Assembly (NCBI GenBank): GCA_022771205.1
Contig: JALFCF010000001.1
Coordinates: 194,663-258,662, forward strand
Source: Mycoplasmatota bacterium
GTDB taxonomy: Bacteria; Bacillota_I; Bacilli_A; RF39; UBA660
Length of the DNA stretch: 64,000 bases
Direction of reading: 5' to 3'
In this document: in pieces, positions 3,672 through 59,744 of the stretch
Layout: the number at the start of each line of letters is the position of its first letter
How positions within the stretch are numbered: position 1 is the first letter of the stretch
Notes under the pieces: generated by a model
What the model was told of the DNA's origin: nothing
Databases searched by the model: none
Seen by the model: only the letters and a program-made list of their open reading frames with translations
Translations under genes and position numbers: made by a program

Positions 3672-4718
3672 ATGTATAGAAATTTTATGAACAACATAGT
3701 AGAAACGTTTTTAAACGAAAAAGGATACAGAGAAAGAAAAGATATTCTAGGAATAATTTTATATGGCAGTTCTATATATCATACTGCAACACATTTTTCA
3801 GACATAGATTTGTTGATAATAACAGAAAATGATAAAAATTATAAAGGATTAACATATATAGAAAATCAAAAAATAGAATATTTTGAAAGAAATATATATG
3901 ATATTTTACAAAAGATAGAAACACTAGATGAAAGTTTAGATCGCTCTTTAATTTCTATTTTTACAAACGGAAAGACTCTTTTCAGTAAATATAATACTGT
4001 AGAAAATATAACAGAAGATATTTTATGTCATGATGAAAATGTAATAAAGAAAAAAAGAACTACTCATTCTGCAAAATTTACAGAGTTTTATAACTTATTA
4101 CAAAAAACTTCTAAAGATTCTCCATTATTTAACTATTTTTATTACAATTTATTAGAAGAAATTAGAAAAGAATATCATAGAGAAAAAGGCTTTTCAAAAT
4201 TGCCAGCTACAAAGATTTTAGAATTATATTCAAATGAAGAGTATGCTACCAAGTATTATTGCGTAATATTACCATCACGAGAATTTAGAAATATTTATTT
4301 AACGCTATTAACTGATGGATATGAAGAAGAAACTTTTACCTCTTTATTATCAACTCTCTCACCTAAAGAAAACCAAAGAACCACTTCCTATCAGAAAAGT
4401 AGAGGAGAAATTAAGTATCAAAGTACAGTTGTAAATACTTCACTAGATAAATATTTAGCTCATAAAGAAGAAGGAAAGAAAGATAGCGCTAGTATTTATT
4501 ATTTGACGTTAGAAAAGATAAGAAGTCTTTATTGCAACATTCAAGGATTAGATAGTTGTGATATAATAGATAATGAATATGAAGAAGAATTTCAAATGAA
4601 GTTCCTGCAGTGTTTAACAACACCCAAAGAAGAACATATCAGAGAATTATTCCAATATGTAACAGAACCACTAAATATGAATTATAAAGAATATAAAGTG
4701 TATGAACTAACTAGTTAA
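3672..4718 (+). CDS. Nucleotidyltransferase-fold protein with long C-terminal domain
   Basis: About 348 residues. The N-terminal 100 residues hold the Pol-beta nucleotidyltransferase signature: LYGSS followed about ten residues later by DIDLLII, giving the two metal-binding aspartates. The rest is helical and unassigned, like aminoglycoside-adenylyltransferase-type or HEPN-bearing proteins. No Shine-Dalgarno is visible before the ATG at 3672 or the next one at 3687, so the exact start is uncertain. Substrate unknown. Confidence 0.65.
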   Translation: MYRNFMNNIVETFLNEKGYRERKDILGIILYGSSIYHTATHFSDIDLLIITENDKNYKGLTYIENQKIEYFERNIYDILQKIETLDESLDRSLISIFTNGKTLFSKYNTVENITEDILCHDENVIKKKRTTHSAKFTEFYNLLQKTSKDSPLFNYFYYNLLEEIRKEYHREKGFSKLPATKILELYSNEEYATKYYCVILPSREFRNIYLTLLTDGYEEETFTSLLSTLSPKENQRTTSYQKSRGEIKYQSTVVNTSLDKYLAHKEEGKKDSASIYYLTLEKIRSLYCNIQGLDSCDIIDNEYEEEFQMKFLQCLTTPKEEHIRELFQYVTEPLNMNYKEYKVYELTS

Positions 4719-53336: not shown

Positions 53337-53370
53337 ATTAGTGTTACAAAAAACATTTGAGGTGACTAAT

Positions 53371-54060
53371 TTGAAAAGAGAAAAACTAATCAGCTCTGTT
53401 TTAGCAACACTTGGAATAGTTATGATATCTATTGCTTTAGTAATCGAACAAGACAATGGATTACAACAAGATAAAGTAATAGAAACAAAAAATAGTACAA
53501 TACAATTAAAAAATATGGCGACTTCTGCCAATAATATAATAAATACAGAGTCAGAAACTACAGAGATTAATACAAGTGCCGAAGTGATTCCTATTGAAAT
53601 GGAAGTGGCACCAGCCTCTGTAATTATCCCTCCAAGAATAGAAGTGTATGAGGGAATGACAATTGATGAACTAGCAGAAAAATTAAATAGAAGTTTAGGA
53701 ACTGGTTACATTGCTGGTAAAGGATATTTAATTGCTAGTCAATGCATTGAAAAAGGAGTAGATCCTTATGTAGCCGTAGCAATTATGTTACATGAAACTG
53801 GCTGTAAATATAATTGTTCGACATTAGTAAAAACATGCAATAATGTTGGAGGACAAAAAGGTTCACCAGGATGTAATGGAGGATCATATAAAGCTTTTGC
53901 GACATTAGATGATGGAATTATTGGATTTATTGATAATCTTCAAAGAAATTATTACTCAAGAGGATTAAATACAATAGAGAAGATTGCTCCTAAATATGCA
54001 GCAAGTTCTGCATGGCCAACAAAAATCAGAAACTATGTAGATCAAATTAGAGCTAGTTAA
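53371..54060 (+). CDS. Exported glucosaminidase/lysozyme-like wall hydrolase
   Basis: About 229 residues. An N-terminal anchor (about 5-25) and a linker precede a lysozyme-fold domain (about 100-229) with IAGKGYLIASQCIEKGVDPYVA, a catalytic-Glu candidate in HETGC, NNVGGQKG and a C-terminal IRNYVDQI. It fits GH73-type glucosaminidases or related transglycosylases. Start is TTG at 53371, preceded by GAGGTGACTAAT; an upstream in-frame GTG at 53341 is too close to the -10. Confidence 0.75.
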   Translation: MKREKLISSVLATLGIVMISIALVIEQDNGLQQDKVIETKNSTIQLKNMATSANNIINTESETTEINTSAEVIPIEMEVAPASVIIPPRIEVYEGMTIDELAEKLNRSLGTGYIAGKGYLIASQCIEKGVDPYVAVAIMLHETGCKYNCSTLVKTCNNVGGQKGSPGCNGGSYKAFATLDDGIIGFIDNLQRNYYSRGLNTIEKIAPKYAASSAWPTKIRNYVDQIRAS

Positions 54061-54084
54061 CTACCTAAAAAGGTAGTTTCTTTC
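54059..54084 (+). terminator. Intrinsic terminator before the OLE-like RNA
   Basis: AACTACCT, loop AAAA, AGGTAGTT with a TTTCTTTC tail. Confidence 0.75.
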
Positions 54085-54085
54085 A

Positions 54086-54660
54086 ATTCTTGGCGCGTTA
54101 TTCTAGTCCAAGGACTTATTAGGAAGACGGGATTAAACAACCGTTAAGGGCATATCTATGAAACCTTTGGTGTTTGCTTCTTGCGCCCAGCTTGGGGTGA
54201 ATGCTGGAGATGTAAGGATACTGGGCGACCGTAATGGCATACGACAATCGACCCACTATTCGCTGGAGACCTAGCCTTGTGGTCAGCCTACACGGACAAC
54301 TCTGACGGACCGACTACGACCTAGGATGAACCTATACGTGGCGAAAGTTATGTATAGTGTAGCCTGCCTTGAGTGAAAATCCGGGAATTAATGATCTTAA
54401 TTCTTTCACAGGCCAGTGAAAGTCTTATTGCGTTATGAAACGATTTTTGCAAAAAAGAACTAATAATAAGAAATTGGTGAGGAAATCTCCTAGAACGTAA
54501 ATAGAATGGGATTGCAGTGAATACTAAGTGGTAATCAAGTCATACAAATGGTGACATTGTATTGATTCTTTGAAAGGGGAACCACATTCTTGGTAACGAG
54601 GATGCAAGAATCAGAGAAACTCTACTTGACCTAAGATTCAAAGTTTACCATTCTATAGCC
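54086..54660 (+). ncRNA. OLE (ornate large extremophilic) RNA candidate
   Basis: About 575 bases without a sustained ORF, clearly richer in G and C than the surrounding DNA, directly before an OapA-like gene. Paired segments can be read by eye. CGCCCAG (54184-54190) pairs with CTGGGCG (54221-54227) and CTATAC (54332-54337) with GTATAG (54352-54357). A long arm is built from GCCTG (54362-54366), GTGAAA (54373-54378) and GAATTAA (54385-54391), with partners at 54397-54413. ATTCTTG (54586-54592) pairs with CAAGAAT (54605-54611), and a nine-base ATAGAATGG (54501-54509) / CCATTCTAT (54648-54656) helix closes the 3' domain. Length, ornate folding and the adjacent OapA-type protein match OLE RNA, known from Bacillus halodurans and anaerobic Bacillota. 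Identity rests on context and length, not on a covariance search. Confidence 0.85.
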
Positions 54661-54685
54661 AAATATCTATTTTAGAGAGGAATTT

Positions 54686-55324
54686 ATGTTATTTAAAACA
54701 AAAAATAGAAAAGAAAAAGCCAAAGAAGAAATAAGAAATTTAGAGGTACAGACAAGAAGAAAAGAAAAAATAAACAAGGAGAAAGTGAATGTAAAATGGG
54801 TAAGTCAAATTACTGTAGTAGCCTTTACTTTATCCTTTTCACTATCATTTATATCTGAAACAACTATTCCTAATTTATCATTAATATTTGGTATAATTTT
54901 AACATTAGCCTTTGTCTTTTTAGGAGTGTTATTTGATATAATAGGTGTATCAGTAACATCAGCAGATGAAAAAGTTTTTCATTCAATGAATTCTAGAAAA
55001 GTACGCGGATCTAATATAGCTGTAAAAATGGTAAAAAATGCTGAAAAAGTATCAAACTTTTGTTGTGATGTAATTGGTGATATTTGTGGTATTATATCAG
55101 GAGCATCAGCAGCCAGTATAGCTGCAATATTATCAATGAATTTAAAAACAAATCCATTATTTACAAGTTTATTTGTAGCTGCTACTATTGCGGCATTAAC
55201 AATAGGTGGAAAAGCATTAGGCAAAACATTTGCCATCAATAAAAGTAATATTATTATATATGAGTCATCAAAATTTATTTCATATTTTTATCATCCTAAA
55301 AAGAATACAAAAAAGAAAAAGTAA
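54686..55324 (+). CDS. oapA: OLE-associated membrane protein (OapA/CorB-DUF21-like)
   Basis: 212 residues. A very basic N-terminus (about 1-40) and C-terminus (KKNTKKKK) flank four hydrophobic helices (about 43-63, 68-90, 125-150, 155-180). Between helices 2 and 3 is a conserved stretch with DIIGVSVTSADE, FHSMNSRKVRG and CDVIGDICGIISGASA, reminiscent of CorB/CNNM DUF21 domains but without CBS domains. OapA in B. halodurans is a four-helix protein of about this size encoded directly after OLE RNA, binds it at the membrane, and is linked to magnesium homeostasis and stress growth. RBS GAGAGGAATTT precedes the ATG. Confidence 0.85.
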   Translation: MLFKTKNRKEKAKEEIRNLEVQTRRKEKINKEKVNVKWVSQITVVAFTLSFSLSFISETTIPNLSLIFGIILTLAFVFLGVLFDIIGVSVTSADEKVFHSMNSRKVRGSNIAVKMVKNAEKVSNFCCDVIGDICGIISGASAASIAAILSMNLKTNPLFTSLFVAATIAALTIGGKALGKTFAINKSNIIIYESSKFISYFYHPKKNTKKKK

Positions 55325-55348
55325 TAAGATAAACTTATTACTTTTTTT
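55320..55348. terminator. Bidirectional terminator
   Basis: AAGTAATAAG, loop ATAAA, CTTATTACTT with T-runs on both strands, between the convergent oapA and rodA genes. Confidence 0.88.
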
Positions 55349-56474
55349 ATCGATATTTATAATGTCTAGCTTTTTCCATAGAAATATTTAAGATAATACC
55401 TACAATGACCATGTAAGATAAGAGACTAGAACCACCATAAGAAATAAATGGTAAAGTAATACCGGTAATTGGTAATAGTCCTACGGTCATACCAATATTT
55501 TGTACTTGCTGAAACAATAACATGCCCAGAATACCAGCTAAAATATATTTATCAGTGTCCACTAACTTTCTTTTAGCAAGCAATATAATTTGAGAATCAA
55601 AATAAACAATAAGTGTAAGTAAAATAATAACCCCTAAAAGCCCAAAGTTAGAAGCATAAACAGCAAATATAAAGTCAGTAGATGATTCTGGAAAGTAAAT
55701 AGGAGTATGATTAAAGCCATGTCCAAAGAATCCTGCTGATCCAATAGCTGCTAGTGCATTTTCAAGTTGTAAGCCTGTACCACTTTGCCAATTAAAAATA
55801 CGTTCAAAACGATAAAATAAATCAGTACCAAATAAGTTAATAAACAAATCTTGTTGTAAAAAGAAAATACCAAAAATAATTGCTAACAAAAGTAAAAATA
55901 CACCACCAGCAATTAAAAACCACCGAATCCTAATACCAGATGCAAACATCATACAAAAATAAATAATAAAATAAATAATAACAGCTCCCGTATCTGGTTG
56001 TAAAAAGGTAAGAATAGAAGGAATTAAAACAATTACTAGAGTTTTTAAAATAAAGATAAATTCTTGCTTTAAAGTAGGATTTGTATAGTCACTTCTAAAA
56101 TTATGAATCATAGTAGCTAACATTAACATAATAAATATCTTCATAAATTCGCTAGGTTGCAGGCTACCAATCCCCGGAATGGTGAACCAACATTTACTAT
56201 TATTAACTGGTTCTGCAAAAAGAAGTAACCCAAGTAACAAAAGATTACCCAAAATATAAAGAAAAATGGTATGTCGATATAAATATTCATTTTTCATATG
56301 AATTAAAAAAGCTACCAAAAAAGAGCCAATAATATACCATAAAGCTTGTTTCAAAGCTAGATTTCCAAGTTCACTGGATGTATAAGTAAGAGCACTATAG
56401 ATAGTAACGATACTAATAGCAGCCATAATACATATAGGAATTAGAATCTTCTTGTTTAATTTTTTTACAGTCAT
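55347..56474 (-). CDS. rodA: RodA/FtsW-type SEDS peptidoglycan polymerase
   Basis: About 375 residues with about ten membrane helices. SEDS hallmarks are QPSEFMKI, QPDTGAVIIY with the catalytic Asp loop, the HGFNHTPIYFPESSTDFIFAVYASNFG loop (long, split across the motif), and a C-terminal LPITGITLPFISYGGSSLLSYM. SEDS proteins polymerise glycan strands from lipid II with a class B PBP. RodA, FtsW and SpoVE cannot be told apart with certainty by eye. Start at 56474 follows GAGGAGATTATT. Confidence 0.88.
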   Translation of the reverse strand: MTVKKLNKKILIPICIMAAISIVTIYSALTYTSSELGNLALKQALWYIIGSFLVAFLIHMKNEYLYRHTIFLYILGNLLLLGLLLFAEPVNNSKCWFTIPGIGSLQPSEFMKIFIMLMLATMIHNFRSDYTNPTLKQEFIFILKTLVIVLIPSILTFLQPDTGAVIIYFIIYFCMMFASGIRIRWFLIAGGVFLLLLAIIFGIFFLQQDLFINLFGTDLFYRFERIFNWQSGTGLQLENALAAIGSAGFFGHGFNHTPIYFPESSTDFIFAVYASNFGLLGVIILLTLIVYFDSQIILLAKRKLVDTDKYILAGILGMLLFQQVQNIGMTVGLLPITGITLPFISYGGSSLLSYMVIVGIILNISMEKARHYKYR

Positions 56475-56558
56475 AATAATCTCCTCGCTATATATTATAC
56501 CAAAAATGTGCAAAAATTATATCTAAAAAACATAAAATATCTTAAAGGAGAGAAATTT

Positions 56559-58413: not shown

Positions 58414-58441
58414 TAAAAGTCCTAAAAGGACTTTTTTTATT
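58414..58441. terminator. Bidirectional terminator
   Basis: AAAAGTCCT / AGGACTTTT hairpin with A and T runs, between convergent genes. Confidence 0.85.
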
Positions 58442-58847
58442 AACATAAATCAATAAATGTATCTGGAAGGCAACGAAGAGCTCCAACACAATCTAAATTG
58501 ATAGTGAAAAATTCAGAAGTACCAACATATCTATTATTAGTAGTGTCTAAATATAGAATACGACATGTGCAGCAGCAATCATCGATTGCTTCAATACGGA
58601 ATACATTAGAAGTAGAAGTCTGGTTATTAGCAGTGTAAGAGAAACTCCAAGGAGTACCAGTACAACAATTGTATAACATAATAGGACGAGTATTATAACA
58701 AATAGTATTACAAATTGGACCTAAATATGGTTTGTCACAACCACTATAGTTTTCATTATCATAATCTTGTCTTTGAAGTAATAATATTTTTTTTAGTATA
58801 TCCGCAAGGCAACCACAATCTTTTTGGTTAGTATCTCCACAACTCAT
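58440..58847 (-). CDS. CotY/CotZ-like cysteine-rich spore-coat protein
   Basis: 135 residues with about 19 Cys. A CGCLADILKKILLLQ start, the NVFRIEAIDDCCCTCRILYL strand pair and a C-terminal ...NLDCVGALRCLPD resemble the Bacillus CotY/CotZ/ExsY family, whose Cys cross-link into coat or exosporium crystals. No signal peptide. RBS AAAGGAGGAGATGAT precedes the ATG. It lies 15 bases after the second CotY/Z-like gene, in one operon. Whether this organism sporulates cannot be told here. Confidence 0.8.
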   Translation of the reverse strand: MSCGDTNQKDCGCLADILKKILLLQRQDYDNENYSGCDKPYLGPICNTICYNTRPIMLYNCCTGTPWSFSYTANNQTSTSNVFRIEAIDDCCCTCRILYLDTTNNRYVGTSEFFTINLDCVGALRCLPDTFIDLC

Positions 58848-58862
58848 ATCATCTCCTCCTTT

Positions 58863-59219
58863 CTATAAACAGGTGATAGAAGTATCTGGAAAACAGCGAA
58901 TAGCACAAAAACAATTAGAAGAAATTGTAACGAATTCTCCTGTTGCAGTAAAATTAGGACTAATTCCATTTAATGCCTGCAAAGTAACACAATTATTATC
59001 GATATTTTCTACTCGAAAAACTGTGTAATTAGAAACTTCAAATACAGTACCATCCTTTTTATATAAAGAAATAGGTCTTGTATTAAAACAAAGCATAGTA
59101 GGATTAGGACCTAAATAAGGCTTAGAACAACTAATATCTACTGGACAATTATTAGAAGAATTTTTTTGAAGTAAATCAATTACTTTTAACAAATTTAGAA
59201 TACAATTATTATTTCTCAT
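58863..59219 (-). CDS. CotY/CotZ-like cysteine-rich spore-coat protein
   Basis: 118 residues with eight Cys. It has the VFRVENIDNNCVTLQAL strand pair and the VTISSNCFCAIRCFPD end, closely matching the CotY/CotZ pattern (FRVE...C.TL...CFCAI.C), and shares SKPYLGPNP with its neighbour's KPYLGPIC. It is upstream of and cotranscribed with the first; the pair look like diverged duplicates. RBS AGAGGTGATTGC precedes the ATG. Confidence 0.82.
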   Translation of the reverse strand: MRNNNCILNLLKVIDLLQKNSSNNCPVDISCSKPYLGPNPTMLCFNTRPISLYKKDGTVFEVSNYTVFRVENIDNNCVTLQALNGISPNFTATGEFVTISSNCFCAIRCFPDTSITCL

Positions 59220-59371: not shown

Positions 59372-59429
59372 AAGCTTATAAGAATATAAAGGGTAGGAAT
59401 ATTCTTAACAAATTTAGGAGGTGAAAGAT

Positions 59430-59744
59430 ATGGGATTTGGAGACATGACTAATTATAGTAAAGAAAGAATGGAATCTCTATCAGACGAAATTAGAAGAGA
59501 CAAAGAAAGATATAATGATCTTGTTGCTCAATTGAAAAGCAGAATCAATGAAATGCATAATTACTGGGTAGAAGATCCAGCTGCAGAAGCAGTATATCAA
59601 CAATTATTAACACAATTTAATACATTCAAAACTAGTATGCAAGAAGGATATGACACAATGACTCAATTTGAAAAACAAGTATTAACTCAAGTTGATAGAT
59701 ATACAGATGCAGAACAACAAACAATGAATGCAATTAATGGATAA
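59430..59744 (+). CDS. WXG100-like type VII secretion protein (WVE variant)
   Basis: About 104 residues, two long helices with a Trp-Val-Glu turn at residues 46-48 in place of Trp-X-Gly. Length and layout match WXG100/EsxA-type proteins secreted by type VII systems. Start is ATG at 59430, after TTTAGGAGGTGAAAGAT. It is the first gene of the operon, 13 bases before the second WXG100-like gene. The missing Gly in the turn is unusual. Confidence 0.78.
   Translation: MGFGDMTNYSKERMESLSDEIRRDKERYNDLVAQLKSRINEMHNYWVEDPAAEAVYQQLLTQFNTFKTSMQEGYDTMTQFEKQVLTQVDRYTDAEQQTMNAING

Follow-up and report, generated by a model that had tools for sequence, protein, structure and literature searches.

Organization of the OLE locus

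We analysed a stretch of 64,000 nucleotides (hereafter the window) from the genome of an uncultured member of the Mycoplasmatota. In an Rfam scan of the whole window, OLE (RF01071) was the sole family above its gathering score. The match lies at positions 54074–54678 on the + strand (605 nt; E = 2.7e-105; 370.6 bits, with the gathering score at 50), covers the model completely from position 1 to 616 and contains every stem of the model, including P7, P8 and P9. The ole gene is followed on the same strand by oapA (54686–55324), the ATG of which opens 8 nt 3′ of the end of the OLE match and which encodes the 212-aa OLE-associated membrane protein A, with a DxxxD motif, four predicted membrane helices and a predicted CNNM fold. 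On the left flank is a gene for a glucosaminidase-like secreted protein (53341–54060, + strand; Pfam Glucosaminidase, E = 1.2e-6, just under the cut-off), and on the right flank is a gene for a RodA/FtsW-family protein (55347–56513, − strand; Pfam FTSW_RODA_SPOVE, E = 2.3e-69). OLE RNAs are among the largest and least understood bacterial RNAs, and their biochemical function is unknown.

The locus is almost certainly an OLE RNA gene with its partner gene oapA. An OLE/OapA arrangement had been proposed from the sequence alone, together with an Rfam covariance search as a check, and this original prediction is borne out by the outcome of that search as well as by co-occurrence, synteny, the DxxxD motif and the fold of the protein.

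Structure and covariation of the OLE RNA

The original prediction of a structured, GC-richer noncoding segment was correct, but the 575 bases allotted to it fall short of the 605-nt Rfam match. The G+C content is 0.43–0.47 across positions 54050–54499, the 5′ part, versus 0.25–0.31 in most intervals flanking OLE, and the longest open reading frame lying wholly within OLE on the + strand has 38 aa. The conserved core of the RNA starts at ~54091. A terminator-like hairpin (54059–54078, + strand) stands directly 3′ of the upstream gene and overlaps the first bases of the OLE match; a similar hairpin follows the same glucosaminidase-like gene in G013, a congener that lacks OLE. A promoter scan at the locus found sites no more often than in shuffled sequences.

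When the Rfam structure was mapped onto the window, 136 of the 150 modelled pairs were canonical. When 23 OLE RNAs drawn from the host's genus and family were aligned, 93.4% of the pair cells were paired versus 38–44% in slid controls, in which the partner was moved by 1–3 columns, a control that leans towards the real pairs because those counted are the ones canonical in the window RNA. Changes on both sides were seen at 91 of these 136 pairs, and pairing with compensatory changes exceeded that in all 500 shuffles and in every slid control. The compensatory changes are stronger evidence for the OLE structure than the slid control.

Stems were named from their order and from a comparison with the short variants. 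The P5 hairpin (54164–54210, + strand) has 20 modelled pairs, 17 of them canonical, and 100% of its cells are paired in the 23 RNAs, while the P6 hairpin (54216–54261, + strand) contains two G-C pairs that are invariant in the 23 relatives. P7 and P8 (54270–54357, + strand) occupy columns that the short OLE variants in this family (L027–L030) lack; these forms of ~500 nt match the published ‘variant 2’, and the window copy differs from them in retaining P7, P8 and P9. In the 3′ region (54542–54605, + strand), the structure mapping and the alignment of 23 RNAs place hairpins with GNRA-type loops (G-GUGA-C and G-GUAA-C). In H. halodurans, OapB binds the 3′ part of OLE, to which these hairpins are the counterpart, and they are retained in the window RNA although no OapB was found. 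P6 is the bS21-binding region in H. halodurans OLE (PMC12054373), and a k-turn near P5 is induced there by OapC or bS21 (PMC9723947, PMC12054373).

The neighbouring protein and its predicted fold

As originally predicted, the 212-aa protein has four helices and basic tails at both the N- and C-termini; in the AlphaFold2 model (mean pLDDT 85.8), long predicted membrane helices span residues 36–60, 66–92, 119–153 and 157–185. Foldseek and VIA-align gave the archaeal CNNM protein MtCorB as the best structural match to this model (Z 14.7, rmsd 2.2 over 130 residues), followed by the transmembrane domain of a bacterial CorC (Z 12.9). Unrelated helical bundles scored well below both (Z 8–9), and the matched region comprises mainly residues 64–201. 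The earlier description of the protein as CorB/DUF21-like was thus right by fold. At the level of sequence, the Pfam CNNM model gave only E = 0.5 for the window protein and found the OapA loci of many family relatives with a best E of 5e-10; a PDB sequence search with OapA returned no relatives up to E = 10, NCBIfam held no model fitting it, and Pfam detected neither a CBS nor a CorC_HlyC domain in its 212 residues.

The DxxxD motif of the window protein reads DVIGD, and residues D128 and D132 are invariant in 23 homologues with identities down to 31%. This motif has been reported as distinctive of OapA versus CNNM domains (PMC11332333). Homologues of the window protein follow OLE in relatives, and those of Papillibacter cinnamivorans and other Clostridia outside the family likewise adjoin OLE; the comparison outside the family used loci from Papillibacter, Anaerosolibacter and others rather than the H. 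halodurans OapA. The window protein therefore shares with OapA, a protein of about 21 kDa, its size, four membrane helices, DxxxD motif, and linkage and co-occurrence with OLE. With the CNNM transporters MpfA, CorB and CorC, it has in common the predicted transmembrane fold (7m1t, 7cfg), whereas it differs from them in lacking the tandem CBS domains and the CorC_HlyC domain that come after the CNNM domain in MpfA, in having four rather than three membrane helices and in carrying the DxxxD motif. The neighbouring protein is OapA, with a predicted CNNM-type fold.

OLE and OapA occur together across the family

We surveyed 291 genomes of the family to which the host belongs; the host genome itself (1.36 Mb, 8 contigs, 94% complete) contains one copy of OLE. 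OLE was detected in 186 of the 291 genomes and a strong OapA match in 188. With three borderline OapA matches set aside, 182 genomes carried both, 4 OLE only, 6 OapA only and 99 neither (p = 1e-64 by Fisher's test, with no correction for shared ancestry). Among the family genomes that are at least 90% complete, OLE was present in 138 of 207, and therefore its absence elsewhere is not mainly a matter of incompleteness. Beyond the family, the 39 genomes surveyed from the rest of the class contained no OLE.

In 114 of the 128 family genomes for which both coordinates are listed, oapA is encoded on the strand of OLE and at most 400 nt 3′ of it, and in the remaining listed genomes the two are separated by 0.5–3 kb or lie on separate contigs. 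OLE and oapA are on different contigs or ~3 kb apart in G018 (C3/C12), G304 (C39/C20), G339 (C29/C12) and G173 (C21), so adjacency is not strictly required. Two examples of OLE with no detected OapA are G049 and G295. G049, which is 93% complete, has a full-length OLE (359 bits) at 4094–4662 on the − strand of locus L136 (G049:C19:38000-46000), and no OapA was found in the genome or in the 8 kb around OLE, where the surrounding genes are unrelated to OapA; oapA adjoins OLE in G222, its sister by genus code. In G295, a low-scoring OLE (E = 2.2e-34) coexists with a full-score CNNM protein, which may represent decay with replacement.

Joint absence of ole and oapA within the genus

The genus comprises 16 genomes including that of the host. 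OLE is present in seven of them and was found nowhere in the other nine, some of which are 92–94% complete. The glucosaminidase-like flanking gene was found in 15 of the 16 congeners, so the locus could be inspected in eight of the nine that lack OLE. None of the eight has ole or oapA at this otherwise conserved locus. The gene immediately after the glucosaminidase-like one is the RodA-like gene in G013, G012 and G007, a PrsW-like gene in G004 and G006 and, within the limits of the contig or locus, in G011 and G014, and an unrelated gene in G001. In the OLE-containing congeners G009 and G015, the order is glucosaminidase-like, ole, oapA, PrsW-like and RodA-like, and therefore loss of ole–oapA is likelier than gain, as we infer it. 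On the tree of the flanking gene, at least three changes between presence and absence are needed, of which the well-supported branches force only one. These comparisons indicate that ole–oapA was likely lost repeatedly within the genus.

Partner proteins of the OLE complex

In H. halodurans, OapA binds OLE in the vicinity of P2 and P4a and tethers it to the membrane, and the OLE complex helps the cells to grow under Mg2+, cold or alcohol stress. Further partners there are OapC, an L7Ae-family k-turn binder, OapB, a KOW protein, and bS21. The original prediction that this lineage carries a full ribonucleoprotein was not supported by the searches for OapC and OapB. No match to L7Ae (PF01248), the family of OapC, was obtained in the host genome at E = 1, and no L7Ae-type protein scored above the cut-off in any of the 291 family genomes, while B. 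subtilis, the control for this search, gave a positive match. The generic KOW model, which is short and weak, returned only two matches in the host, NusG and uL24, the latter encoded in the ribosomal operon, and thus did not find OapB in this 94% complete genome; judged by this model, OapB is probably absent from the host. bS21 is encoded in the host genome (PF01165, E = 5.9e-16).

The window RNA resembles H. halodurans-type OLE in its full-model sequence and structure, in its single copy per genome and in having oapA directly downstream. It differs in its host, an uncultured organism with a 1.36-Mb genome in which OapC and OapB were not found, and in its glucosaminidase-like and RodA/FtsW-family neighbours. 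Fernando and Breaker described OLE in the reduced-genome gut clades RF39 and TANB77, largely without OapB and OapC (PMC11332333), and the present locus agrees with these clades and is of this already known kind. Small genomes, the lack of OapC and the probable lack of OapB are shared, and the same family has the short forms, whereas the OLE of the window has P7, P8 and P9; the published bit-score classes rest on another model (PMC11332333).

No visible substitute accompanies the absence of OLE

MpfA proteins have been proposed in the literature as all-protein equivalents of OLE–OapA. We found the CorC_HlyC domain typical of MpfA in none of the 291 family genomes. A frame of 316–431 aa with a full-score CNNM domain occurs in 20 of them (for example, G111:C47:15971-16546 and G030:C10:15874-16404); these frames are possibly CNNM-CBS proteins shorter than MpfA. 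They were present in 14 of 186 genomes with OLE and in 6 of 105 without it, which is no difference (p = 0.64). MgtE did not score above the cut-off in any of the 16 genomes of the genus. Across the CorC_HlyC and CNNM searches in the family and the MgtE search in the genus, genomes without OLE show no visible substitute for it, and the idea that MpfA replaces OLE gains no support inside this family. What is new here is the joint absence of ole and oapA at a conserved locus within a genus, together with the absence of CorC_HlyC from the family.

A proposed two-part OLE ribonucleoprotein

The minimal OLE ribonucleoprotein of this lineage would consist of the OLE RNA and the membrane protein OapA. 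By homology with H. halodurans, OapA would bind OLE and hold the RNA at the membrane. OapA may act as a CNNM-type divalent-cation transporter or sensor that is controlled by the RNA bound to it, in which case OLE would stand in for the CBS and CorC_HlyC domains found in MpfA proteins. For H. halodurans, too, a cation-transport role of OapA is a published proposal (PMC11332333, PMC12265935), and we consider the chances of such a mechanism operating in this lineage to be roughly even. Without OapC, a switch from P5/P6 to the k-turn would be driven by bS21 alone or would not be used, and the 3′ domain, without OapB, would fold either by itself or with the help of some other partner.

It is a little less likely than not that OLE RNA and OapA, possibly joined by bS21, form a two-part device that can do without OapB and OapC and that this lineage lost as a unit, more than once, with no MpfA-type replacement; sister species with and without OLE would then offer a natural comparison for OLE function. 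A complete ribonucleoprotein of the H. halodurans type (OLE, OapA, OapB, OapC and bS21), with partners that were missed or fell into assembly gaps, would fit the retention of the k-turn region near P5, of P6 and of the 3′ GNRA hairpins, and a 94% complete genome searched with a short, weak KOW model leaves some room for it. Gaps, however, cannot explain the lack of an L7Ae protein above the cut-off in all 291 genomes, the two KOW matches are uL24 and NusG, and the partners are reported as largely missing in RF39 and TANB77 (PMC11332333), which makes this reading very unlikely.

The absence of OLE from 9 of the 16 congeners and the existence of shortened forms in the family would also suit a decaying relic, in which OLE and OapA persist without function during genome reduction. 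Yet the many compensatory changes and 93% pairing across the lineage, the intact oapA frame with its invariant motif and the near-complete coupling of RNA and protein point to current selection, and we regard a relic as highly improbable. With an open reading frame starting 8 nt further on, the structured segment resembles a cis-regulatory leader of oapA; alternatively, it could belong to another large RNA class. We rejected the cis-regulatory reading because OLE alone scores in the Rfam scan, and a leader acting purely in cis is further at odds with the relatives in which OLE and oapA are 0.5–3 kb apart or on different contigs; the probability left to either form of this explanation is negligible. 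Lineages that have OLE and lack OapC and apparently OapB help to show which part of the complex is indispensable, and the clean absence of ole–oapA from some close relatives provides a comparative handle on OLE function.

Other features of the window

Two adjacent genes at 58440–59219 on the − strand of the window encode spore coat CotZ-like proteins (E = 8.9e-13 and 1.2e-11); sporulation genes have been reported to correlate with OLE (PMC11332333). At 59421–59744 on the + strand, a gene encodes a WXG100-family protein (E = 2.8e-7), which suggests a type VII-like secretion system nearby.
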